From a virus: a stretch of DNA of 52,162 nucleotides. Both the position numbers and the translations under genes were made by a program. The notes under the pieces were generated by a model. That model was not told where the DNA came from and ran no database searches. It worked only from the letters and a program-made list of their open reading frames with translations. Below are positions 1,329-31,317 of the stretch, piece by piece (within the stretch, counting starts at the first letter, position 1; each line of letters opens with the position of its first letter). The DNA is taken from the IMG/VR virus record IMGVR_UViG_3300001450_000052, positions 1 to 52,162 of that record; one strand, 5' to 3'.

Positions 1329-1690
1329 ATGGCAAGAAAAATTAAATTAACTGAAAGAAATTTACAACAAATTGTAAATAGAGTAATTAAAGAATCACAA
1401 TTATTAAATGAAAACCTTATTGAAATAGAGTGTGAGTGTGGTGGTGATTGTATGTGTTACGGAAACTACGATGGTTCTGCAGCTGATTGTACATGTTGTG
1501 GTGGTTTGGTGATGATGGTTGTGGTGGTCCAGATATGGTGGACGATGGTGGTAAAACAAAATACAACCCAATGTCTGGTGGTATGTCGACAGGTGGTGGA
1601 AGAGGTAAAGAAATGATGATGAAGGGTATGATGGGTGAAAACAGAAGACTTAAATTAGAAAATAGAAGACTTAGAAACTCAAGAAGATAA
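1329..1690 (+). pseudogene. Small tagged Cys-rich protein (copy 2), frameshifted
   Basis: Paralogue of the gene at 987, split by a frameshift. The first frame (1329-1616) encodes the tag KIKLTERNLQQIVNRVIKES and a Cys block (CECGGDCMCYG...CTCCGG). It then runs into an implausible Val/Met/Trp-rich tail. From about 1500 the -1 frame, ending at 1690, gives a sensible Gly/Asp-rich segment and the ending ENRRLRNSRR, matching copy 1. The joined product would be about 120 residues. The shift falls in the GGT/GGTTTGG-rich stretch at about 1497-1512. I see no classical X XXY YYZ slippery heptamer, so a natural indel or an assembly error is likelier than programmed frameshifting. A strong terminator follows. 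Confidence 0.65.
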
Positions 1691-3172: not shown

Positions 3173-3397
3173 ATGGAAAATGTAATCAAATACGTAACAG
3201 GATTTTTTGGTGGTCTATCATCAGTATTGATGGCAGTATTACCGGTAACAATCTTATGGACTGTCTTAACAGGTGGTACAGTATTTGGAATGGATGTTGT
3301 AACAAATCTTTCTGCTCTTATCACTTCACTTGGTGAAGGTGGTTTCGTAGGTTTGATTGTGTTAGTGTTATTAACATCATTCTTCGTTAAGAAGTAG
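3173..3397 (+). CDS. Small membrane protein, two TM segments (holin-like size)
   Basis: 74 residues. Hydrophobic segments are at about 8-34 (FFGGLSSVLMAVLPVTILW...) and 55-71 (GGFVGLIVLVLLTSFFV), followed by a basic KK end. The Gly-rich central loop (LTGGTVFGMD) and small size are compatible with a holin or another small phage membrane protein, but no family is recognised. The start follows AAAAAACAAAAAAT, an A-rich leader with no Shine-Dalgarno sequence. A TATTTATC box lies 51 nt upstream (3114-3121). It is followed by a pseudoknot-like RNA (3408-3443) and the beta-barrel gene, so the two envelope proteins may be co-transcribed. Confidence 0.65.
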   Translation: MENVIKYVTGFFGGLSSVLMAVLPVTILWTVLTGGTVFGMDVVTNLSALITSLGEGGFVGLIVLVLLTSFFVKK

Positions 3398-4055: not shown

Positions 4056-5093
4056 ATGAAATTACTAAATATTATACATAAAGTTGTTTTAGAGCAGGCT
4101 AGGGATGGGGAAAAAGTTGAGGATAGAGACCGTAAACCTGACGTTGAAGTAGACATAGAAACACCCGATAGAGAACCTGAGGATAGAGAACGTGAAAGGG
4201 AAGATGGTGAACGAGAAGATAGAGAAAGGGAAGATGAGCGAATAGATGATAGAGAAAGACAAGATAGGGAAAGAGAAGATTTAGAAAATAGGGAAAGAGA
4301 AAGGGAAAATAGAGAATTAATTGGTAAATGGATATGTAAAGACCCAGTAAATTTCCCAAGATGTCAACAAATTAGAGATGAAGGTGGTGTTAGAAGGGCC
4401 TTAAGTTTTGGATTTCCATACTATAACACACAAAGGGAGTGCATATCAACTTCACCGTGTACTGGTGAACAAGTTAGAAGAGCTCCAGTAACGAGACCTA
4501 CAGTAACCACAGTAAGACCTACAGTAACCACAGTAAGACCTATAGACACCACACCAGAACCTAGGCAAACCACACAACCAGAAACCACACAAAGTACCGA
4601 AGAGGATTCGGTACCAAAAATTAATATGAAAACTAAATTTGACAGTGATGAAAAAATAGGGGATATAAAAAAAATACAGTCTAAAAAACTTATAAAAATT
4701 ATAGAAGATAAATTAGTAAAACAATTAGAATTACAACCACAAAATATAAAACAAAAATTAAATCAATTTAGGATAAAACCTAAAACCATGTCTTATTTAG
4801 TACCACTTTCATTAGAAACTGGTACATTGATGAGTAAAATGGAAATGGATGGGTTAAACCTACCATTAATGATGTTACTTTATAGTTCTAGTAATAGTTT
4901 ATATAAATCTATGGAAAGTAATATACCTTTTAAACAAGAACAAGCAAAACCTATTAGTGGGCCTATTAGTTATAAGAATTTTTGGAACTGGAGTGAAAAC
5001 ATATATAATAATTGGGGCCCGTGGTTAAAAACTAACGTCGTTAATAATTTTCCAGAAATAGCTAGAAATACATTCCCAACCTTATCTTTTTGA
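4056..5093 (+). CDS. Tagged, charged-repeat protein of unknown function
   Basis: 345 residues. The N-terminal MKLLNIIHKVVLEQ is a short tag-like helix. Residues about 20-88 are almost entirely Arg, Glu and Asp in degenerate DRERED repeats, a highly charged disordered or single-helix region. A small domain with four Cys follows (CKDPVNFPRCQQ...CISTSPC, about 93-134). Then comes a Thr/Pro linker with a perfect TVTTVRP repeat (about 148-165) and a helical C-terminal region rich in Met and Leu. No family is recognised. The composition suits an internal virion protein or linker, not an enzyme. Its last 12 bases overlap the end of the convergent gene at 5082. There is a single upstream box and no Shine-Dalgarno sequence. 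Confidence 0.7.
   Translation: MKLLNIIHKVVLEQARDGEKVEDRDRKPDVEVDIETPDREPEDREREREDGEREDREREDERIDDRERQDREREDLENRERERENRELIGKWICKDPVNFPRCQQIRDEGGVRRALSFGFPYYNTQRECISTSPCTGEQVRRAPVTRPTVTTVRPTVTTVRPIDTTPEPRQTTQPETTQSTEEDSVPKINMKTKFDSDEKIGDIKKIQSKKLIKIIEDKLVKQLELQPQNIKQKLNQFRIKPKTMSYLVPLSLETGTLMSKMEMDGLNLPLMMLLYSSSNSLYKSMESNIPFKQEQAKPISGPISYKNFWNWSENIYNNWGPWLKTNVVNNFPEIARNTFPTLSF
4130..4320 (+). repeat. Degenerate GA-rich low-complexity tract
   Basis: Repeated GATAGAGAA / AGGGAAGA words on the plus strand encode the Arg/Glu/Asp region of the 4056 gene. The period is irregular. A long minus-strand open frame here is only its shadow. Confidence 0.7.
4500..4541 (+). repeat. Two perfect tandem copies of a 21-bp unit
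   Basis: The unit beginning ACAGTAACCACAG and ending TAAGACCT occurs at 4500-4520 and 4521-4541. It encodes TVTTVRP twice in the linker of the 4056 protein. The repeat is in frame, so copy-number change would only lengthen or shorten the linker. Confidence 0.9.
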
Positions 5094-5567: not shown

Positions 5568-7211
5568 TTATTTATATTTTTTACAAACTTTACAACTCAT
5601 TCTAGATTCTTTAGCTTTACACCACTCCTCTATAGGGTAAAAGGAAGCTAGGTAGTAAACAAAATTAGTAGCGTTACAAATTAATTTACTCCTATATTTT
5701 GCGTTACTACAACAACCATCATAACCGCCATCCCAACCATTAAATTGAATAGTGTAGTCCCATAATTTTTCATTAGACCAACCTAATCTTTTTTTAATGT
5801 AGGCAGCTACAACAAAACCAGTTCTGTCAGCTCCATGAGTACAATGAATTAAAGTGTTACCTTCATTAAGTTCTTTTAATCCCTTATCTACAGCTCCAGT
5901 GTAACCAGTTTCATAGTTTCTACCACCACGATAAGGGTCATGAGCATTAAACCATATATATTCTCTACCTGTAGATTCTACATATGCTTTTTCATCATGT
6001 TTTTCAACACCGGTCCCTTCTAAATTGTTCATCCTAACTACCCTTTCTATATCCGGATAATCCTCAAATACTTTGGCCAACTCTTTAAGTGTAGGTTGTT
6101 CACATCTAAAGTTTCCTTGCCCACCAGGTATTTCAGCAAAGTTACCAGGTAGTTTATTACCAGGTGTTATATTATTTATATCCACATCTTTGTCGTCCTT
6201 CTTCTTATTTGTAGTTATTTTCTCTTTATCCTTTTTAATTTTACTACACCAAACGGAATCTTTACAGTTGTCTTTTTTACAAGCATTTTTTCTACAACAT
6301 CTAGGGGTTCTACCCTTAGCTATAGTTTCTAATGTACACTTACCAACAACACCATCTACCACTAAATTAAATCTTTCTTGGAATTCTTTTATACCGTCTT
6401 CCATAATGTCTAAAAACTTACCATCTATACCATCATTCATAGGACCACTGTTACTTAAATCGATACTATAGTCGTTAACTAACATAAGTTGTACATACTT
6501 AACTAAATCACCACTATCACCTCTTTGTAATGTATCTTTACCCATTTCAATATCCCCTATCGAGGTAGGTCCTTTGGTTTTTAGTTCTGATTTTACAAAT
6601 ATTTTATCACCTTTAAATGTTTCTGTATCTTCACAATTATTATAAATTCTTCTAATACCACCAGAACCTTGCTGCCATATAAGATATAATAACCACTGAT
6701 TTTCTGGAGAAAAAACATCCACCCCAATACTACTAGAAAAACTATTACCTAAACTTGTAGCGTATTTTACAAATTGTCTTGTAGCGATATCTGCATTTTC
6801 AGCATCCTCTTGACTAGTTATGCCATAATCTGACCAATAAGGTCTACAATATTGAAATAACCCCCAACAACCCTGTCCGTTATCACCTTTTTCACGACCA
6901 CTATTTTCTATCCAAGCAAAAGTATTAAGGAGTCTCATTGGTAATTTTGAAGTTTTATGTTTTTCAAAAGCGTCTTTAACAGGTTGTTCATAACCACCAC
7001 CATTGTTTTCACTATAATCTTCATTGTACTTATTTTTCCAATACTCTAAAAAATTACAATAAGTCATAGTATCGTATTTATCCCCGAAATCTTTATAGAC
7101 ATTATTTTTCATCTTGTGGAGAGTGTCAGCTGGTATTTCTACCTGTTCTTTAATTACAGGTAAACCCATTATTTCTCTAACTCTATTTATTTCTTCTCGG
7201 ATAAGACTCAT
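5568..7211 (-). CDS. Transglycosylase-like / peptidoglycan-binding / tyrosine phosphatase fusion
   Basis: 547 residues in three parts. Residues 1-23 (EINRVREIMGLPVIKEQ) form a tag-like helix ending in an IKE site. About 80-195 resemble a lytic transglycosylase: IENSG with candidate catalytic Glu102, then GCWGLFQ and a final WQQGSGG block. About 225-298 form a PG_binding_1 repeat (LQRGDSGDLVKYVQ ... DGVVGKCTLETIAKG). After a Lys/Cys-rich linker, about 370-535 form a dual-specificity/tyrosine phosphatase-like domain with the P-loop HCTHGADRTG (Cys457, Arg463, CX5R), with Asp425 as a possible general acid. The C-terminus is Cys-rich. Wall-cutting plus phosphatase modules on one tagged protein suggest an injected virion enzyme. 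Domains are assigned by motif only. Confidence 0.8.
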   Translation of the reverse strand: MSLIREEINRVREIMGLPVIKEQVEIPADTLHKMKNNVYKDFGDKYDTMTYCNFLEYWKNKYNEDYSENNGGGYEQPVKDAFEKHKTSKLPMRLLNTFAWIENSGREKGDNGQGCWGLFQYCRPYWSDYGITSQEDAENADIATRQFVKYATSLGNSFSSSIGVDVFSPENQWLLYLIWQQGSGGIRRIYNNCEDTETFKGDKIFVKSELKTKGPTSIGDIEMGKDTLQRGDSGDLVKYVQLMLVNDYSIDLSNSGPMNDGIDGKFLDIMEDGIKEFQERFNLVVDGVVGKCTLETIAKGRTPRCCRKNACKKDNCKDSVWCSKIKKDKEKITTNKKKDDKDVDINNITPGNKLPGNFAEIPGGQGNFRCEQPTLKELAKVFEDYPDIERVVRMNNLEGTGVEKHDEKAYVESTGREYIWFNAHDPYRGGRNYETGYTGAVDKGLKELNEGNTLIHCTHGADRTGFVVAAYIKKRLGWSNEKLWDYTIQFNGWDGGYDGCCSNAKYRSKLICNATNFVYYLASFYPIEEWCKAKESRMSCKVCKKYK

Positions 7212-7236: not shown

Positions 7237-8976
7237 CTATAGTAATTGCATTTCTTCTAAAATACTTAACATCAAATCATCATCCTCCATATGGTCACCC
7301 ATAACAGTATCTATAACACGTTTTTTCTTCTGTACTATATTGTATATTATTCTTTCTAGAGTGTTGTCAAATATTGGGTATAAACAAGATACATTCTTCT
7401 TTTGACCAATCCTAAATGCCCTATCTTCTGCTTGTGCCATATCTGAAGGTACAAAAGATAAGTCATTAAAAATCACAACTTCACCAGCGGTTAAGGTAAT
7501 ACCCACACCACCAGCTTTTATATTTGAAACAAATATTTTTGTCTTTGGGTCATTTTGGAAAGAGTCTACACTATCTTGCCTTTGCTCCTGATTCATCCTA
7601 CCGTATAAAGGTACAGCTATTTTTTTATACTTTGACCAAATCTCCATCAAAGGCTCTGTAAAATTTGTAAAAACAATTACTTTCTTATCTTGTTCTAAAC
7701 ACTGGTCGATTAACTCAAAAGTGTTAGTCAATTTTTCTTTGGCTATAATTTGTCTAACTTTCATTAGTTTATTTAGTTGTATTGTAAGACTTTCATTCTT
7801 ATTTTCATTTGCCCAATCCAAATACTCACCCACTTCTTTTTTATATTCTTTTGAATTTAGTTCTAAAAATATTGGGGTTATAATTTTGTCAGGTAAATCT
7901 AAGATTTCTTCTTTTAACCGCCTTAACACTTTTTGTTTAGTTCTATCTCTAAGTTCATCAAGATTGGAAGCTCCATTAGTTAACCAAATTTTTCTACCAC
8001 CTTTATTTATTTGGTAACCCTCACAATATCTTTTAACGTAACTAACCCAGTTTTTAGCCACCCTAGATTCAACCAACTTTAAAAGGTTATAATAATTCAT
8101 AGGTCTTGATGTCATTGGGGTACCAGTCAACAACCAAACCTTCCCTACTTTTTTAACTATATCGTTAGCCAATTTGGTTCTTTGTGCTTTTGTATTAGAA
8201 ATGTAGTGAGCTTCGTCTATAATCACTAAGTCAAAACCCTCGTCTAAAATTGTTGTAATCTCATTTTTTTTATCTAAACTGTGAAAATTTTTAAGAATGT
8301 CATAATTAATAATAACAAACTTACCACCATCCCAATTCTTACTTTGAACTATAGAAATTTTATCATTAGAGTAATTTTCTATTTCCCGCTTCCAATTTAA
8401 TTTAAGTGTAGCCGGGCACATAATTAAAACTTTTTTAGCCTTACTTTCAATAGCGGCGATGGTAGCACTTGTAGTTTTACCAACACCCATATCATCAGCA
8501 AGAATGTATTTATCATTTCCTAATAATTTTTCTACAGCAGTTTTTTGGTGGTCATAAGGCATTCTATGTGAATAGGGTGAAAAGTCTACAACTACTTTTC
8601 TTTCGGTATCTGGTATTATTTGATTTCTAGGTACCCAAAAACTATAAAGTTTTTGTGTTTCTAATATTTTACCCCATATATGGAAAGCTTTTGGTTTTTC
8701 TGATAATATTTTTTCTACCCATATAGATTTAGGTTTTTCACTTAAAAAATTATCACTCATTAAACCCTCTGCGAAATAATCATCTATTTCGACCCATTTT
8801 CTAGCAACTTTAGGGGTTTTATCATAATTGTTAATAATATAATCAGCCTGTGACCTAGTAAGTGTCTTAGATTTGTATATTTCGTATGAAGATTTTAGTT
8901 GAAGTATATAGTTATTAGCTCCAGAATATTCTGAAAGTAGTTTTTTTGCTTCTATTTCCGGTAAATTTAGTTCCAT
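7237..8976 (-). CDS. SNF2-family DNA-dependent ATPase/helicase
   Basis: 579 residues with the two RecA-like lobes of superfamily 2. Lobe 1 has Walker A ADDMGVGKTT (about 160-169), a DEAH box (about 254-257) and the TGTP motif (about 284-287). Lobe 2 has FTNF, the GGVGITLTA motif and the SNF2-type arginine-finger block AQAEDRAFRIGQ near residue 520. The order and the RIGQ signature point to the SNF2/SMARCAL1-like group. It would remodel forks or recombination intermediates, a role played in T4 by UvsW, but equivalence is inferred. The roughly 140-residue N-terminal region has no recognised domain. It heads a minus-strand operon and is divergent from the neck genes at 9035. Confidence 0.9.
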   Translation of the reverse strand: MELNLPEIEAKKLLSEYSGANNYILQLKSSYEIYKSKTLTRSQADYIINNYDKTPKVARKWVEIDDYFAEGLMSDNFLSEKPKSIWVEKILSEKPKAFHIWGKILETQKLYSFWVPRNQIIPDTERKVVVDFSPYSHRMPYDHQKTAVEKLLGNDKYILADDMGVGKTTSATIAAIESKAKKVLIMCPATLKLNWKREIENYSNDKISIVQSKNWDGGKFVIINYDILKNFHSLDKKNEITTILDEGFDLVIIDEAHYISNTKAQRTKLANDIVKKVGKVWLLTGTPMTSRPMNYYNLLKLVESRVAKNWVSYVKRYCEGYQINKGGRKIWLTNGASNLDELRDRTKQKVLRRLKEEILDLPDKIITPIFLELNSKEYKKEVGEYLDWANENKNESLTIQLNKLMKVRQIIAKEKLTNTFELIDQCLEQDKKVIVFTNFTEPLMEIWSKYKKIAVPLYGRMNQEQRQDSVDSFQNDPKTKIFVSNIKAGGVGITLTAGEVVIFNDLSFVPSDMAQAEDRAFRIGQKKNVSCLYPIFDNTLERIIYNIVQKKKRVIDTVMGDHMEDDDLMLSILEEMQLL

Positions 8977-24701: not shown

Positions 24702-25019
24702 ATGTCGTATTATAATAGATATAAAGAATTTGAGGTTAATGGACAATCTAGAAGTGTGCCGTTAATAAACATACCAAAAAAAAGTTCGGACAAATACTTA
24801 GTTTATAAAGTAGGTAGGAGTAGACTAGATAAGATATCCCAACAAGTGTATAACACACCTTATTTTGGTTGGTTGATATTACAAGCTAATCCAGAATATG
24901 GTGGGCAAGAATGGAATATAACTGATGGTAGAATAATTAGAGTACCTTTCCCACTAACAGTTAGTTTACAAGACTACAAAAGTGAATTAGATAAACATTT
25001 CTTATATTATGGCAGATGA
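24702..25019 (+). CDS. LysM-like tail protein (gpX/gp53-type)
   Basis: 105 residues. The C-terminal half has the layout of tail protein X and LysM-like baseplate proteins: YKVGRSRLDKISQQVYNTPY, FGWLILQANPEY, then DGRIIRVPFPL, i.e. RLD-I-Y...W.I..AN...I.G..IR.P. In phage P2 gpX and T4 gp53 this small fold helps join tube or hub to the wedge. Its last 11 bases overlap the start of the giant hub gene, implying coupled translation and joint assembly. The conserved pattern and context make the assignment reasonable. Confidence 0.75.
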   Translation: MSYYNRYKEFEVNGQSRSVPLINIPKKSSDKYLVYKVGRSRLDKISQQVYNTPYFGWLILQANPEYGGQEWNITDGRIIRVPFPLTVSLQDYKSELDKHFLYYGR

Positions 25020-28000
25020 TATTCTTAACGCTAGTGAAAGTGTTTACACAAAACAAATTTGTGATAATCTAATTCTAATAGACCCGAATAAAATACAAAG
25101 TGCTGACGGAAAAAGTATAGAAGATAGGTTAGTTAGACATGAGGATTTAGTTATATATGTAAATTTAACAGCTAGGGTTATACCTAGGTCTAAACTAATT
25201 CAAGGTAAAGGTGCTTCAGATAGTGGTGTTAAAGTTGATTTATTTGATGGTGAAATAAATTTTTTAAAACCTAAAAACAAAAAATCTTTAGATAGTGATT
25301 GGACAGAAGCTTTTACTGACCCATCTGTAAATAAAATAGTACGTAATGAAGACACTAACGAACAAGGACAAACTTTTTATAGTAAAAGTATAGAAAATAA
25401 AAGTGATTTTCAGGGTTTTGGTATAACAGGTATTGATATAAAGATAAGTTCTTCATTTGTACCACAAGTAACTATAAATTTTGTTGATATTAGGGGTAAA
25501 ACTTTATTTGAACAAGCCGAAACAAATACCCCATATACAGCATTTTTTCATTTACCATACCCACAATTTGAGTTGACAGTAAAAGGTTACTACGGTAAGG
25601 CCGTAAAGTACCAACTAGCAATGACAAATTTTGAAGCTAATTTTGATAGTAATTCCGGTGACTATAATGTAACTGGTACTTTTATAGGTAATCATATAGC
25701 TTTATTAAATGATATTAATTTACAACAAGCTATGTTGGCACCTTATTTGTATCCAGTAGTGAAACAAACAAGTAGTGAAGAAACACCTAAAGGGTTGGGT
25801 AGAAAAATTATGGATGATGTTTATGAGATATATAAAAAAAAGAAATTAATCCCACAAGATTTTCCACATATTACAATTTTTGAATTAATAGGTTTAGTTG
25901 AAGGATTTACTGACAATCTTAAGAAAAATTTTAGTAAAGCAGACTTAAGATTTACAAATGACCAAAAAGTATACCAAGAACATTTAAAAAATTTTTGGAA
26001 TGCTATTTTTGGTACCAATGGTTGGATGGAAAATTTCATCAATACCGAAAGTGAAGAATTGTTAGATATGACATTAGGTTCCACAGGTAACCCAAACAGT
26101 AGTGATAAAAAAGTGGTAGCACATGCCTTTAAACTTAAAGAGATTACAGATGAATATATTAATAATGCTGAATCTAAATTAAAATACATAATAGAAGGTT
26201 ATAAAAAACAATTATCAGATAATGTTACTTTTGGTTTAGGTGGTGCGTCTGAGGTAAATCTAATTAGAGATTTTAATATAGAAAATCAAAGAGCGGTAAA
26301 TAATAATTCTAATGATATTAGTAAATTAAAACCAGACACCAAAGGATGGTACATACTATCTGACTCCCCAAAAAGTTTTGGTGGGGTATACGGTAGAGTT
26401 TTAGAAGAGTTTGAAAAAAACTGGAAACAAGCACAAACTAAAGCTAGTGACAAACTTAAAACCGTATTTCAACAAAGTCTATCATTTTACCCATCTATTA
26501 GAAATTTAATGGGTGTTGTTATGGCAGGGGTTGATACGTATTTAAGATTGATGGATAGAGTTCACACCAAGGCATTTGATGAAAAAACAACACCCCAAAG
26601 AGTAAAAGCTGTAATAACAAATAAAAAAGGTTATGAAGATGCTGTAAAAGGTGGTAAAGAAGTTTTTCCATGGCCACAATATTATCAGTATGATGATAAT
26701 GAAAATAGGTACGTTTTACAATATCCTGGAGCCGCGGGTAGTCTTTCGGAAACCAACGCTCAAAACGCTAAATGGTGGCCCGAAGTAGAGTTTATAGAAG
26801 AATATACAAAAGCAATCCATTCTAGGGTTAACCAAGTTCCATTCCAATCTACTAATGAAGTAAGGTATACGGGTCAAATAGCTTTATCGGTTAGACAATT
26901 TCCTTTTATTAATAAGGCGTACGATTATACTGTTAAAAATAGTATATTATGGGAAATATTAGATAGGGCAACTGACTTCACTAATTATGTTGGTGTAACA
27001 GGGTATAAATCCCAACCAGCACAGATTGTCGACACATTATTAGAAGCTGCACAAAATGATTCTAAAAATTTAATGATGGCTATTGAAAGTGATTTTAATC
27101 TACAAGAATTTTTTAAAGATAATAAAATAGATTATAATTCTTTTTTAGCGTTTCTAAAAAATGAATCACCAGACAAACACCTATTGTGGGAACACGGACA
27201 CATTAATACCGAATATTTAAATAGTCTTAATTCACAACCAAATGATATAAAAGGCACATCTTATGGTTTGTATCCAGAATCTAGTATAGTTGATATTTTT
27301 ACCGAAAACGGTAATTATGGGAAATACCAAAAATTGTTTTTAGAAAGTAAAAAAACCCAGGACTGGTGGTTCGACTTTTACCCATTTAATATTGGTAATT
27401 TAAATAGTTTAAGAAGTAAATTATCTGATTCGGCTAATATAACAGCTGAAAAATTCTTTGAAATAGACGTTTTACAAATAGACACCCAAACAAACGTTTA
27501 CGCAACAAAATCAATGGGGGACGACTTGGAATTTCGTAAATCATGTCAATATTACACTAATTTAAATTGGGATGTAGATACTGTTTATGGTAGTTTGTTT
27601 GATGTTGTAAAAGGTGATTGGGATTATGTTAGTACATTCACCACTTTTGATAATTGGGAACAATATTATAATACTAAACAACCCACTATTGAATTACAAA
27701 GTACCACTGATGGTATAAATTATACCTCAGATTCATTTTCTTCACAGATAGTTTCTATGATGAATACACCTTGGTTTGCTAATGCAATATATAAAGCTTT
27801 TATACAAGAACAAACTAGTGTTCCACAACCATACAAAGACGCGGCATACCTATTTTTAAATTCTTTACCAGTTACTAGTACATTAGAAAAAACGATACTA
27901 AAATACCAAGGTAAACACCAGTACAGTTCTTATGTAGCTCAAGCTATAAAACAACTAGCTGGTTATCATGAACTACCATATTCATTTATTTTAAAACTAG

Positions 28001-31000
28001 GTTCTATATGGCATGAGTATAAATCGGGACCAACAACTCCAGAAAATAGTATATTTTGTGGTTTAGGGGGTGGTGATGGTGGTAGTACCGGAACAGATGG
28101 TGATATTAGATGTAATGAGTGGTATGTGGACGCATCATCCGCAAATGGTTTTGGTTGGTTTGATTACACATATAATGGTAATATATTACCTGGTTTAAAT
28201 ACTGAAGAAATAACTTTAGGTTTTTGGCCTAGATTAATAAACGCTGTACATACAATTGTTACAGACAAATCCATATTACCAAATGTGGGTAGTTGGACAT
28301 CGGTAAGTGATATAAACGTTATGTTTACCGGAATTGTACCTGGTGGTTTAGAAATTGAAAAAGAAGAAGATTTGTTTACCCATAAAGACGGTATAGATTA
28401 TAATTTTTATTCTACTTTTATAGATTCTACTAATGTTGGAACACAAGGAGTTTCAGAAATAGACCCAACTATAGACCCTTATTATATAATTTATCCTTCA
28501 GCTGGAGCTTTGGTTAATACAGATTTATCTTTTATGGGTGATAATATAAATACAGCTGGTTTTGATGGTAGTGCAAGATTTTTATGGGGGGGAGCTGGTT
28601 ATGGAGCATTTGATGTTACACAACCAGGGAGTATACCATTAAAATACGGTGGATTATACGGAAGAGTACCTAAAAGTAACTACTTTAAAAGAATAGATAC
28701 GACCCAACCAAATCAACAAGCTTGGAATATTAATAATACTAATGATGTAACTACCAATTATGATGATATGACAGAATTGCTTTCTGTTTTTCCTTCACAA
28801 GTTTTAAATGAGTTTGAACAACAGTTCTTAAATTTTTGCCAACCAGAAAACCCAAACGCTACAAGTGTTGAGGGTGAGTTTACAAGTTTTAAATCTATAT
28901 TTAAAAAATTAATGGTTGTAGATAAAAATAGTATAGAAGCTGAAGTAGATATTGATGTCAGACCCAACGGGAATAAAACCCATAAAACTTTAGACATATC
29001 CAAAGCACAATATAAAAATTTCTTAAATTTAACCAGAATATTTTTAAAACAAAAAGTAATATATAAACATGGTTCGGTTAATGGTTGGGATATAGTTGTA
29101 AGTCCTACAGGTGGTAGTGATAAATTATCTACAAAACAATTAATTTACCACATAACAGGTTATGGAGCTAGTAGTATACAACTAAAAAGTTATGACGCAT
29201 CTTTATATCCGGGTGGTAATCCTGACACGTCATTTAAAACTGACATGAGACTTTATGTTATGCCTAGAAGAACTGTAGGTATAGATATTGCACACGATAA
29301 CGCTACAATCATATGTTTCGACTTCTTTAAAAATTACAACATATCACCAACCCTAGTACAACAATTTGCACCAATACTTAAACAATATTTGACAGAAACA
29401 CTACGAACATCTCCAGTAGCCACTAATGGGATAACAAAAACAGATTTCTCAACTAGAATGAGTACTTATTTCGATAACCTTAAAAGTTATGATAAATATT
29501 ATATTGATGAAATATTTAAACAAGTAGCAAAACTAGACCCGACAAAAGGTTTAAATAATTCTAATAATAATGATGGTGGTAAAGATGATGGTAGGCCTAA
29601 AATTGTTGCTGATAATCTTAAATTAGAGTTATACCAGGTATTTAAAACATTTAATGATAAATGGATATCAGGTACCCAAGTCCAGGGAGAAGATTTAAAC
29701 GCACCAACACCAACAAATTCTAAAGCTTTACCTTCCTATAATACACAATTTGAAAAATTTATGTTTTTAGATAGGGGTAATGTAGATATTGGTAATGACG
29801 CTGTTATAGACATATATCAATTTTTAGGTCTAGACACACCATTTACAGATAGTCCAAATACGTCAGTTAAACAGACTATAGGTGGGTTTGTAAGTACTTT
29901 GTGTTCTAAAAACTTTTTTAATTTTATACCCTTACCTTCCTACGTTAATTTTTACAATATGGAAGAACACGACACACAAGGTCAGGGTAACGCTATGTTT
30001 GGAGCTTTTAAACAGGTTGATTATAGTTTGTCTTCTCCAAAATATTTGTGTCAATACATAGGGCCCCCATCGACTAGTTTAGATGTAAAAACATCAACAT
30101 ATGGGTACAATAATGATACTTTTGTGTTAAATAGAGTTAGTCCAAATCCTTTATGTCAACCAATACCAAAAGGTCAAGAAGAAAAAGATTTAAATAATAA
30201 AGTAGTTGCTTTTGCTGTAGATTTCGGTATACCTAACCAACAAATTTTTGAAAGTATTGGGTTAAACCAATCAGAATTTCCAAATACTAGTGAATCTTTT
30301 AGGATTTTAGAAGATATGGGTAAGGTAGCTAGTGGTTCTAAAGTTTCCACCAATTCGATGAACTTATTTAATCTATACAAATCTAGGTCTTATCAATGTC
30401 AAGTAACATCAATGGGTAACGCTTTAATACAACCAACAACGTATTTTCAATTAAGATACCTACCAATGTTTAGTGGGCCATATCTTATAATGGACGTAAG
30501 TCATAATATAACCCCAAATGATATGACAACTACATTTACTGGGGTTAGAGTTGGTATACCTAGTTTACCTTCAATAACAGATTTGATATCGTCAATACAA
30601 GAATCATTACTTAAAAGTATGGATAGTGACCTAGAAGAGACCCCAACATCTAGTATAACACCAAATATGGACCCACATGATTTAACTGTCCCAGAAGAGT
30701 TAACTATATCTGAAGACGATATAAGTAGTTTAACTTTTGCGGTACAAGACCCTGTAGACATAAGTAAAATATTAAAACCTACAGAAAGCCAATCATTCTG
30801 GGTACAAAGAAACATTGTTGATGAGTCAACAGGGGCAGTTATTGGTCAGAAACCACATAAGGGAATAGATTATTCACCTAAAACAGAATTTAAAGGTACT
30901 GATATTGATATTTTATCACCTATAACTGGTATAATAACAGCTAAAGTTAGTGGGTGTAAACCTGGTAGTAGTGCAACTGCAAAAAAATGTGGAGGTGGAT

Positions 31001-31317
31001 ACGGAAACCATTTAGATATTGAAAAAGTACTAATAAACCCAACAGACTTATCAGCTTACGTGTCGGGAGCAGTTACTAGGTATAAATTTAGAGTAGCTCA
31101 TATAAAACAAGAAACGATAATAAGTTCTGGTATAAATTCTGGTGTAAATAAAAATACTAAATTAGGTATTATGGGCACCACTGGATACTCTACAGGTGTA
31201 CACTTACATTATGAAATAATAAAGTACCAATTAAACGAAAACCTTAAAGAAATAAAGCTATATTTAAACCCAAATAGTTTTAGTAGTGAGTACCTTGGAG
31301 GTGGAGAAACTACTTAA
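25009..31317 (+). CDS. Giant baseplate hub protein with C-terminal M23 peptidase domain
   Basis: 2102 residues. The N-terminal part (about 140-235: GITGIDIKISSSFVPQVTIN, then YPQFELTVKGYYGKAVKY) and a region near 1793-1850 (QCQVTSMGNALIQPTTYFQL, then MFSGPYLIMDVSH and TTTFTGVRVG) look like hub (gp27/gpD-like) strands. The last 150 residues are an M23 (LytM-like) metallopeptidase: PHKGID near 1948-1953 gives the first His and Asp ligands, GGGYGNHLDIE follows, and HLHYE near 2065 supplies the HxH motif. M23 enzymes cut peptidoglycan cross-bridges, so the hub carries its own wall-piercing enzyme, as T4 gp5 carries a lysozyme. The roughly 1500-residue middle is unassigned. Confidence 0.85.
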   Translation: MADDILNASESVYTKQICDNLILIDPNKIQSADGKSIEDRLVRHEDLVIYVNLTARVIPRSKLIQGKGASDSGVKVDLFDGEINFLKPKNKKSLDSDWTEAFTDPSVNKIVRNEDTNEQGQTFYSKSIENKSDFQGFGITGIDIKISSSFVPQVTINFVDIRGKTLFEQAETNTPYTAFFHLPYPQFELTVKGYYGKAVKYQLAMTNFEANFDSNSGDYNVTGTFIGNHIALLNDINLQQAMLAPYLYPVVKQTSSEETPKGLGRKIMDDVYEIYKKKKLIPQDFPHITIFELIGLVEGFTDNLKKNFSKADLRFTNDQKVYQEHLKNFWNAIFGTNGWMENFINTESEELLDMTLGSTGNPNSSDKKVVAHAFKLKEITDEYINNAESKLKYIIEGYKKQLSDNVTFGLGGASEVNLIRDFNIENQRAVNNNSNDISKLKPDTKGWYILSDSPKSFGGVYGRVLEEFEKNWKQAQTKASDKLKTVFQQSLSFYPSIRNLMGVVMAGVDTYLRLMDRVHTKAFDEKTTPQRVKAVITNKKGYEDAVKGGKEVFPWPQYYQYDDNENRYVLQYPGAAGSLSETNAQNAKWWPEVEFIEEYTKAIHSRVNQVPFQSTNEVRYTGQIALSVRQFPFINKAYDYTVKNSILWEILDRATDFTNYVGVTGYKSQPAQIVDTLLEAAQNDSKNLMMAIESDFNLQEFFKDNKIDYNSFLAFLKNESPDKHLLWEHGHINTEYLNSLNSQPNDIKGTSYGLYPESSIVDIFTENGNYGKYQKLFLESKKTQDWWFDFYPFNIGNLNSLRSKLSDSANITAEKFFEIDVLQIDTQTNVYATKSMGDDLEFRKSCQYYTNLNWDVDTVYGSLFDVVKGDWDYVSTFTTFDNWEQYYNTKQPTIELQSTTDGINYTSDSFSSQIVSMMNTPWFANAIYKAFIQEQTSVPQPYKDAAYLFLNSLPVTSTLEKTILKYQGKHQYSSYVAQAIKQLAGYHELPYSFILKLGSIWHEYKSGPTTPENSIFCGLGGGDGGSTGTDGDIRCNEWYVDASSANGFGWFDYTYNGNILPGLNTEEITLGFWPRLINAVHTIVTDKSILPNVGSWTSVSDINVMFTGIVPGGLEIEKEEDLFTHKDGIDYNFYSTFIDSTNVGTQGVSEIDPTIDPYYIIYPSAGALVNTDLSFMGDNINTAGFDGSARFLWGGAGYGAFDVTQPGSIPLKYGGLYGRVPKSNYFKRIDTTQPNQQAWNINNTNDVTTNYDDMTELLSVFPSQVLNEFEQQFLNFCQPENPNATSVEGEFTSFKSIFKKLMVVDKNSIEAEVDIDVRPNGNKTHKTLDISKAQYKNFLNLTRIFLKQKVIYKHGSVNGWDIVVSPTGGSDKLSTKQLIYHITGYGASSIQLKSYDASLYPGGNPDTSFKTDMRLYVMPRRTVGIDIAHDNATIICFDFFKNYNISPTLVQQFAPILKQYLTETLRTSPVATNGITKTDFSTRMSTYFDNLKSYDKYYIDEIFKQVAKLDPTKGLNNSNNNDGGKDDGRPKIVADNLKLELYQVFKTFNDKWISGTQVQGEDLNAPTPTNSKALPSYNTQFEKFMFLDRGNVDIGNDAVIDIYQFLGLDTPFTDSPNTSVKQTIGGFVSTLCSKNFFNFIPLPSYVNFYNMEEHDTQGQGNAMFGAFKQVDYSLSSPKYLCQYIGPPSTSLDVKTSTYGYNNDTFVLNRVSPNPLCQPIPKGQEEKDLNNKVVAFAVDFGIPNQQIFESIGLNQSEFPNTSESFRILEDMGKVASGSKVSTNSMNLFNLYKSRSYQCQVTSMGNALIQPTTYFQLRYLPMFSGPYLIMDVSHNITPNDMTTTFTGVRVGIPSLPSITDLISSIQESLLKSMDSDLEETPTSSITPNMDPHDLTVPEELTISEDDISSLTFAVQDPVDISKILKPTESQSFWVQRNIVDESTGAVIGQKPHKGIDYSPKTEFKGTDIDILSPITGIITAKVSGCKPGSSATAKKCGGGYGNHLDIEKVLINPTDLSAYVSGAVTRYKFRVAHIKQETIISSGINSGVNKNTKLGIMGTTGYSTGVHLHYEIIKYQLNENLKEIKLYLNPNSFSSEYLGGGETT

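Follow-up and report, generated by a model that had tools for sequence, protein, structure and literature searches.

We present a marine phage protein in which a lysozyme-like domain, a peptidoglycan-binding domain and a PTP/DSP-fold phosphatase are joined in a single chain, a fused architecture that is real and recurrent. The window, by which we mean the whole stretch of 52,162 nucleotides analysed here, comes from an IMG/VR fragment record of 52,515 bases and has the tail and baseplate genes, the helicase and the recombination and replication genes of a T4-like phage, whose host is only guessed to belong to the Bacteroidota. The initial annotation had placed the gene at exactly 5568 to 7211, with HCTHGADRTG at residues 456-465 (C457) and the Glu of IENSG at E102. 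All of these positions hold, on the minus strand, and GCWGLFQ lies at 114-120. From the N to the C terminus the modules are a tag, the lysozyme-like domain, PG_binding_1, a Cys-rich linker and the phosphatase. The same architecture is found on the independent contigs L001 (93 % identity), L002 (61 %) and L048 (45 %), where the flanking genes are identical in kind, so the fusion is no accident of assembly. The features to which we refer are the following, related contigs and loci being given as L numbers.

5568..7211, minus strand: whole gene, 547 amino acids; open frame with ATG at 7211 and stop at 5568-5570, orthologues having the same neighbours
7146..7211, minus strand: N-terminal tag, residues 1-22, MSLIREEINRVREIMGLPVIKE; the same tag is found on the unrelated phage proteins L047, L049 and L050
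7146..7154, minus strand: I20-K21-E22, predicted prohead-protease cleavage motif, after the T4 consensus L/I-x-E (PMC9026906)
6567..7136, minus strand: predicted lysozyme/SLT-like catalytic domain, residues 26-215; profile comparison with SLT domains, SLT match in L048, PHROG transglycosylase
6906..6908, minus strand: E102, predicted catalytic Glu; invariant in the window, L001, L002 and L048, and aligned to the Glu of SLT ES..NP
6852..6863, minus strand: G117-Q120 (GLFQ), equivalent of SLT GLMQ; invariant in the four SLT-type members
6312..6542, minus strand: PG_binding_1 domain, residues 224-300; Pfam match over 252-296, conserved across all swapped versions
6165..6311, minus strand: Cys-rich linker, residues 301-349, from the alignment; C305, C306, C311, C316 and C322 invariant
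5571..6164, minus strand: PTP/DSP-fold phosphatase domain, residues 350-547; AF2, Foldseek and profile against PDB
5817..5846, minus strand: P-loop HCTHGADRTG, with C457 as predicted nucleophile, D462 as probable general acid, and R463; orthologue conservation
7237..8976, minus strand: SNF2-type helicase gene, synteny marker (Pfam SNF2-rel_dom, 5.5e-25); adjoins the gene in L001, L002, L006, L048 and L076
5082..5564, minus strand: 160-aa gene, synteny marker; adjoins the gene in the same five contigs

An earlier claim that no known phage protein joins wall hydrolysis to a dual-specificity phosphatase agrees with our searches: we found no description of such a fusion in 50,697 phage records or in the literature searched, most of it outside subscription journals. 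Searching the same records by tblastn with the proteins of the window, L017, L020 and L025 returned no close relatives in cultured phages; the matches were confined to PG-binding domains, weak SLT domains or lone phosphatases.

We judge the chances to be about even that the protein is a modular envelope-penetration enzyme borne by the phage particle. Residues 1-22 would direct the protein to the capsid as a propeptide like those of the T4 internal proteins, and a prohead protease would cut after I-K-E. At infection the mature protein would enter together with the genome and reach, at least in part, the periplasm, where the PG-binding domain would anchor it on peptidoglycan, the lysozyme/SLT-like domain would cleave glycan strands, and the cysteine phosphatase (C457 as nucleophile, R463, and D462 as general acid) would dephosphorylate an envelope molecule, the candidates being a phosphorylated glycan, lipid A or a lipid carrier, and an exported phosphoprotein. 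Muralytic activity, packaging, cleavage and the periplasmic site of action are what we infer in this proposal.

Domains and catalytic residues

The PG_binding_1 domain (PF01471) is matched in the window protein with an E-value of 1.5e-8 and 35.1 bits against a curated cut-off of 23, and in L076 with an E-value of 1.2e-11. Where a PG_binding_1 repeat had been described, the domain itself is present, but as a single copy.

The N-terminal domain had been called transglycosylase-like. The case for a lysozyme/SLT-like enzyme is made by profile comparison, by weak family matches and by its exchange for a lambda-type lysozyme, though not by a structure: AlphaFold, run on the domain alone, did not resolve it (pLDDT 43). 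When a profile of the four SLT-type members was compared with 13 SLT domains by hhalign, the score was 30.7 (P 2e-4), with E102 paired to the catalytic Glu and GLFQ to GLMQ; the best of 40 column-shuffled controls scored 18.0 and the reversed control 13.5. The window copy has no significant Pfam match. Its L048 counterpart matches SLT (PF01464) at 0.008, or at 2.2e-4 in a one-genome search, with 16.1-16.7 bits that lie below the curated cut-off of 21.3, and the PHROG transglycosylase family is matched by L002 (0.0027) and L048 (0.012). Against the PDB the N-domain profile gave chance matches only. At the same position L006 and L076 carry a lambda-type lysozyme (phrog_90, 3.3e-17 and 2.6e-12), for which a three-member profile finds lambda lysozyme as its best PDB match, at an E-value of only 0.02. 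Elsewhere in the window, a 2102-aa baseplate-type protein (25009-31317, plus strand) carries at its C terminus a domain resembling M23 peptidases (residues 2042-2073, E 2.2e-4); this is probably the enzyme with which the tail itself cuts the wall.

The PTP/DSP fold proposed for the C terminus is borne out by modelling and by profile search. The phosphatase is the only part resolved by AlphaFold at full length with 11 sequences (pLDDT about 70-90 over 361-490 and 511-547), and the model places the CX5R P-loop between a strand at 453-457 and a helix at 463-476. Foldseek relates this model with probability 1.00 and TMt up to about 0.7 to SIW14, AtPFA-DSP1, TpbA and RNA triphosphatase. A sequence profile built from 12 phosphatase domains and run against the PDB leads to these families too, with an E-value of 7e-8. 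In Pfam, the phosphatase is matched over residues 437-518, by DSPc at 2.6e-6 with 27.7 bits, under its cut-off of 33.5, and by Y_phosphatase3 at 7.6e-5 with 23.2 bits, over its cut-off of 22.2. An RNA 5′-triphosphatase-like domain acting on host or phage RNA is, in our estimation, very improbable. The best P-loop matches in solved structures are indeed the HCTHG of capping-enzyme and baculovirus RNA phosphatases; however, those matches barely exceed the P-loop, whereas the alignments with SIW14, TpbA and AtPFA-DSP1 span the entire domain, and both the fusion to a wall enzyme and the exported relatives described below make an RNA substrate unlikely.

Residues C457, G460, A461, D462, R463, T464 and G465 are invariant in five module-swapped orthologues. 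C457, D462 and R463 are unchanged in every phage and cellular member examined, a conservation that is partly built in since most phosphatase loci were retrieved by this P-loop; L048, which was found via the tag, and the flanking sequence of the cellular relatives are more independent witnesses. At the classical acid position in the WPD/D-loop, D425 of the window protein is replaced by N in L002 and by Q in L006, and we rejected it as general acid because the position is not conserved. In MptpB-type enzymes and myotubularins the general acid is an Asp of the P-loop and the WPD Asp is absent (PMC3091653); here D462 is the probable general acid. The substitutions at D425 could also be taken to mean that the phosphatase is dead, or a binding-only module that recognises envelope phosphate and positions the lysozyme, and the large divergence between phosphatase types would suit such a recognition role. 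We regard this as decidedly unlikely, given that the three catalytic residues are invariant and that the enzymes just named need no WPD Asp.

The phosphatase resembles the MptpB/ALP atypical lipid phosphatases, whose signature is HCXXGKDR, in having a P-loop Asp before the Arg and no conserved WPD Asp. Unlike them, it reads HCTHGADR, the Asp being kept and the phosphoinositide-binding Lys replaced by Ala; it falls outside that family, though it may use the same chemistry. As the P-loop lacks the MptpB-type Lys, the substrate is not readable from it.

Module exchange and relatives

Six contigs carry the gene between an SNF2 helicase gene and a gene for 156-160 amino acids: the window, L001, L002, L006, L048 and L076, the first two being near-identical. 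The wall enzyme is SLT-like in the window, L001, L002 and L048 and lambda-type in L006 and L076, while the phosphatase has the P-loop HCTHGADRTG in the window, L001, L002 and L006 and the divergent HCRNGADRTG in L048 and L076. All four pairings of the two wall enzymes with the two phosphatases occur among the five distinct syntenic relatives, around a constant PG-binding and Cys-rich core. L006 keeps the tag, the PG-binding domain and the phosphatase (65 % identity in the PTP domain) and replaces the SLT-like domain by a lambda-type lysozyme, its N domain being unrelated to that of the window. L048 keeps the SLT-like domain, 45 % identical to that of the window, and has a divergent phosphatase (38 %), which in the tree falls outside the clade of the window, L001, L002 and L006 (98/96 support). 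L076 combines a lambda-type lysozyme with the L048-type phosphatase. No version of the locus without the wall enzyme or without the phosphatase was seen among the syntenic contigs. This exchange is the pattern that selection for a wall-enzyme/phosphatase pair with swappable parts would leave. The sequences themselves show which modules are present, that the phosphatase has the PTP fold, that the catalytic residues are conserved, and that both enzymes recur and are exchanged.

Scanning 2.9 million viral contigs for HCTHGADRTG identified 15 loci. L017 joins the tag to a muramidase and the phosphatase, L019 and L026 have the same arrangement with an SGNH-like C terminus, and L075, from a further scan, has a lambda-type lysozyme, the phosphatase and an SGNH-like domain. 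Two of these loci hold triads of a lysozyme-type enzyme, a PTP and an SGNH-like esterase in one protein each:

L019, 4449-6590: lysozyme-type enzyme, PTP and SGNH-like esterase
L075, 4561-7149: lysozyme-type enzyme, PTP and SGNH-like esterase

In both, the SGNH-like assignment is drawn from a GDS...DxxH motif together with weak matches to GDSL; Pfam gave no match to SGNH. Further phosphatase proteins lie in the baseplate gene region (L013, L014/L016, L020, L021 and L024) or the structural region (L022), labels that reflect a reading of the neighbouring genes rather than family searches. In the marine phage loci L013, L016, L020, L021 and L024 the N-domain is common to neighbouring paralogues, of which only one bears the phosphatase. 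Lone viral phosphatases with a signal peptide or anchor are found in L025 and L027.

Applied to 84,980 cellular genomes, a stringent pattern retrieved ten relatives, about 24-57 % identical over short stretches. An export signal, whether signal peptide, lipobox, Tat motif or N-terminal hydrophobic anchor, is present in ten out of ten, as judged by motif and hydropathy and with no control set of other phosphatases behind the count. All identified fusion partners of the phosphatase act on wall or glycan. Together, the exported cellular relatives and these partners make the envelope a likelier place for the phosphatase than the cytoplasm. TpbA of Pseudomonas aeruginosa, a periplasmic phosphatase among the top fold and profile matches, has the PTP fold and shares its periplasmic site with the cellular relatives, but is a lone exported enzyme without fusion to a wall enzyme. 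One exported relative (L041, 5662-6285) is flanked by genes resembling murD and ftsW in a proteobacterial MAG; a tie of the phosphatase to peptidoglycan synthesis through this setting was set aside as a lead only, the setting not recurring in 60 genomes of the order.

These relatives bear on the proposal, made in the initial annotation, that the protein alters host phosphoprotein or phospho-sugar signalling, which our results do not support. Injected by the particle, the phosphatase would then act on its targets in the cytoplasm, as do the T4 head proteins that carry the same kind of tag (PMC9026906), and the fold is that of tyrosine and dual-specificity phosphatases. We nevertheless find such a role improbable: export signals or anchors in all ten cellular relatives make action in the envelope likelier than cytoplasmic signalling, the partners to which the phosphatase is fused have wall or glycan as their targets, and the PG-binding domain stands between both enzymes in every orthologue.

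The N-terminal tag and head packaging

Six distinct proteins in the viral collection bear the tag pattern EEIxR[IV]xEIMG, and three of these (L047, L049 and L050) have no relation to the window protein. Within 10 residues behind EIMG, all six tags have an L/I-x-E motif (IKE in three, and INE, IVE and IIE) followed by Q, A or S, compared with a background of 9.9 % in the bodies of the same six proteins. These phages have a second class of tag, LTExxLxxII..., of which 11 out of 13 examples end in L/I/V-x-E; the background here is 9.5 %. Across the exchanged versions of the locus, IKE is retained in the window, L001, L002, L006 and L048, including L002, in which the leader itself differs and IKEQ is still present; L076 has no IKE at the aligned place, only L-T-E a few residues away.

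In T4, the prohead protease gp21 cleaves after L/I-x-E, and ten N-terminal residues are enough to direct a protein into the head (PMC9026906). From the tag sequences, packaging of the window protein into the head appears likely, and it could plausibly be carried in the virion by means of a capsid-targeting propeptide of T4 type with an L/I-x-E end. As with the T4 internal head proteins (IPI-IPIII and Alt), proteins of one phage group that are otherwise unrelated have in common a short amphipathic leader ending in L/I-x-E. In contrast to those proteins, the leader in the window has about 22 residues rather than 10, its packaging and cleavage are predicted from sequence, and it leads a wall enzyme, a kind of cargo that T4 does not send into the head by this route. 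T7 gp16-type and tape-measure proteins carry SLT domains in virions, and the window protein, probably virion-borne as well, shares an SLT-like domain with them; it is weakly similar to proteins of phiR1-37 and Paul. It differs in being a small modular enzyme and no channel or tape measure. Pfam searches of the related contigs for the prohead protease and gp23 gave no match, an absence that is uninformative as the positive controls were also silent; these contigs are fragments without recognised head genes.

Several unrelated proteins of the window also have short leaders ending in L/I/V-x-E, with N-termini at 987, 1329, 2077, 4056, 15842 and 39901, and a census of such leaders might predict the full head-packaged set of the phage group. 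Two of them are adjoining tagged small Cys-rich proteins (987-1307 and 1329-1616, plus strand), the second of which looks frameshifted, its Gly/Met-rich end resuming in another frame at 1487-1690. The protein at 4056-5093 (plus strand) has the leader MKLLNIIHKVVLEQ, a long Arg/Glu/Asp repeat, strongly variable among the relatives in L001, L002, L006 and L048, and a conserved C-terminus.

Counting against a particle-borne enzyme, T4 internal proteins reach the cytoplasm, where there is no substrate for a lysozyme, and delivery to the periplasm is an assumption. The main rival is an endolysin with the same accessory phosphatase, which would lyse the cell late, once a holin has opened the membrane, by means of its lysozyme and PG-binding domains, the phosphatase weakening the envelope and the tag having a different role. 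A lysozyme-like catalytic domain with a PG-binding domain is the usual layout of modular endolysins and virion-associated lysins (lysozyme or SLT with PG_binding_1), the PHROG matches are named endolysin, and no other free endolysin was recognised within the window. A possible holin is a protein of 74 amino acids (3173-3397, plus strand) that has two hydrophobic stretches and no Pfam match; however, it lies on the opposite strand and is not adjacent. Known lysins of this kind differ from the window protein, which adds a C-terminal PTP-fold phosphatase and an N-terminal capsid-type tag, and from its looser relatives L019 and L075, which add an SGNH-like esterase. Moreover, a tag ending in L/I-x-E that is common to unrelated, non-lytic proteins points to head packaging, and related PTP proteins are found among baseplate and structural genes. 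We therefore regard the endolysin as a possible but somewhat doubtful explanation.

Possible meaning for phage entry

Returning to the particle-borne enzyme, we suggest, tentatively, that virion-delivered combinations of a wall enzyme with a phosphatase, and sometimes an esterase, have arisen repeatedly in several lineages of marine phages, their catalytic halves being traded independently. The phosphatase would strip phosphate decoration of the envelope, or lipid phosphate, that hinders entry or wall cutting, and this would be a new step of entry. Removal of phosphate probably helps these phages to pass or disable the host envelope.

Phage lysins are familiar as enzymes that cut peptidoglycan and bind it. 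If this holds true, a phosphatase that recurs as partner of different lysozyme types would imply that some component of the envelope bears phosphate that acts as a barrier or target important enough for a dedicated enzyme, and would provide a starting point for identifying this component in marine bacteria. The leader with its L/I-x-E end offers a simple sequence rule for guessing the head-packaged proteins of uncultured T4-like phages.
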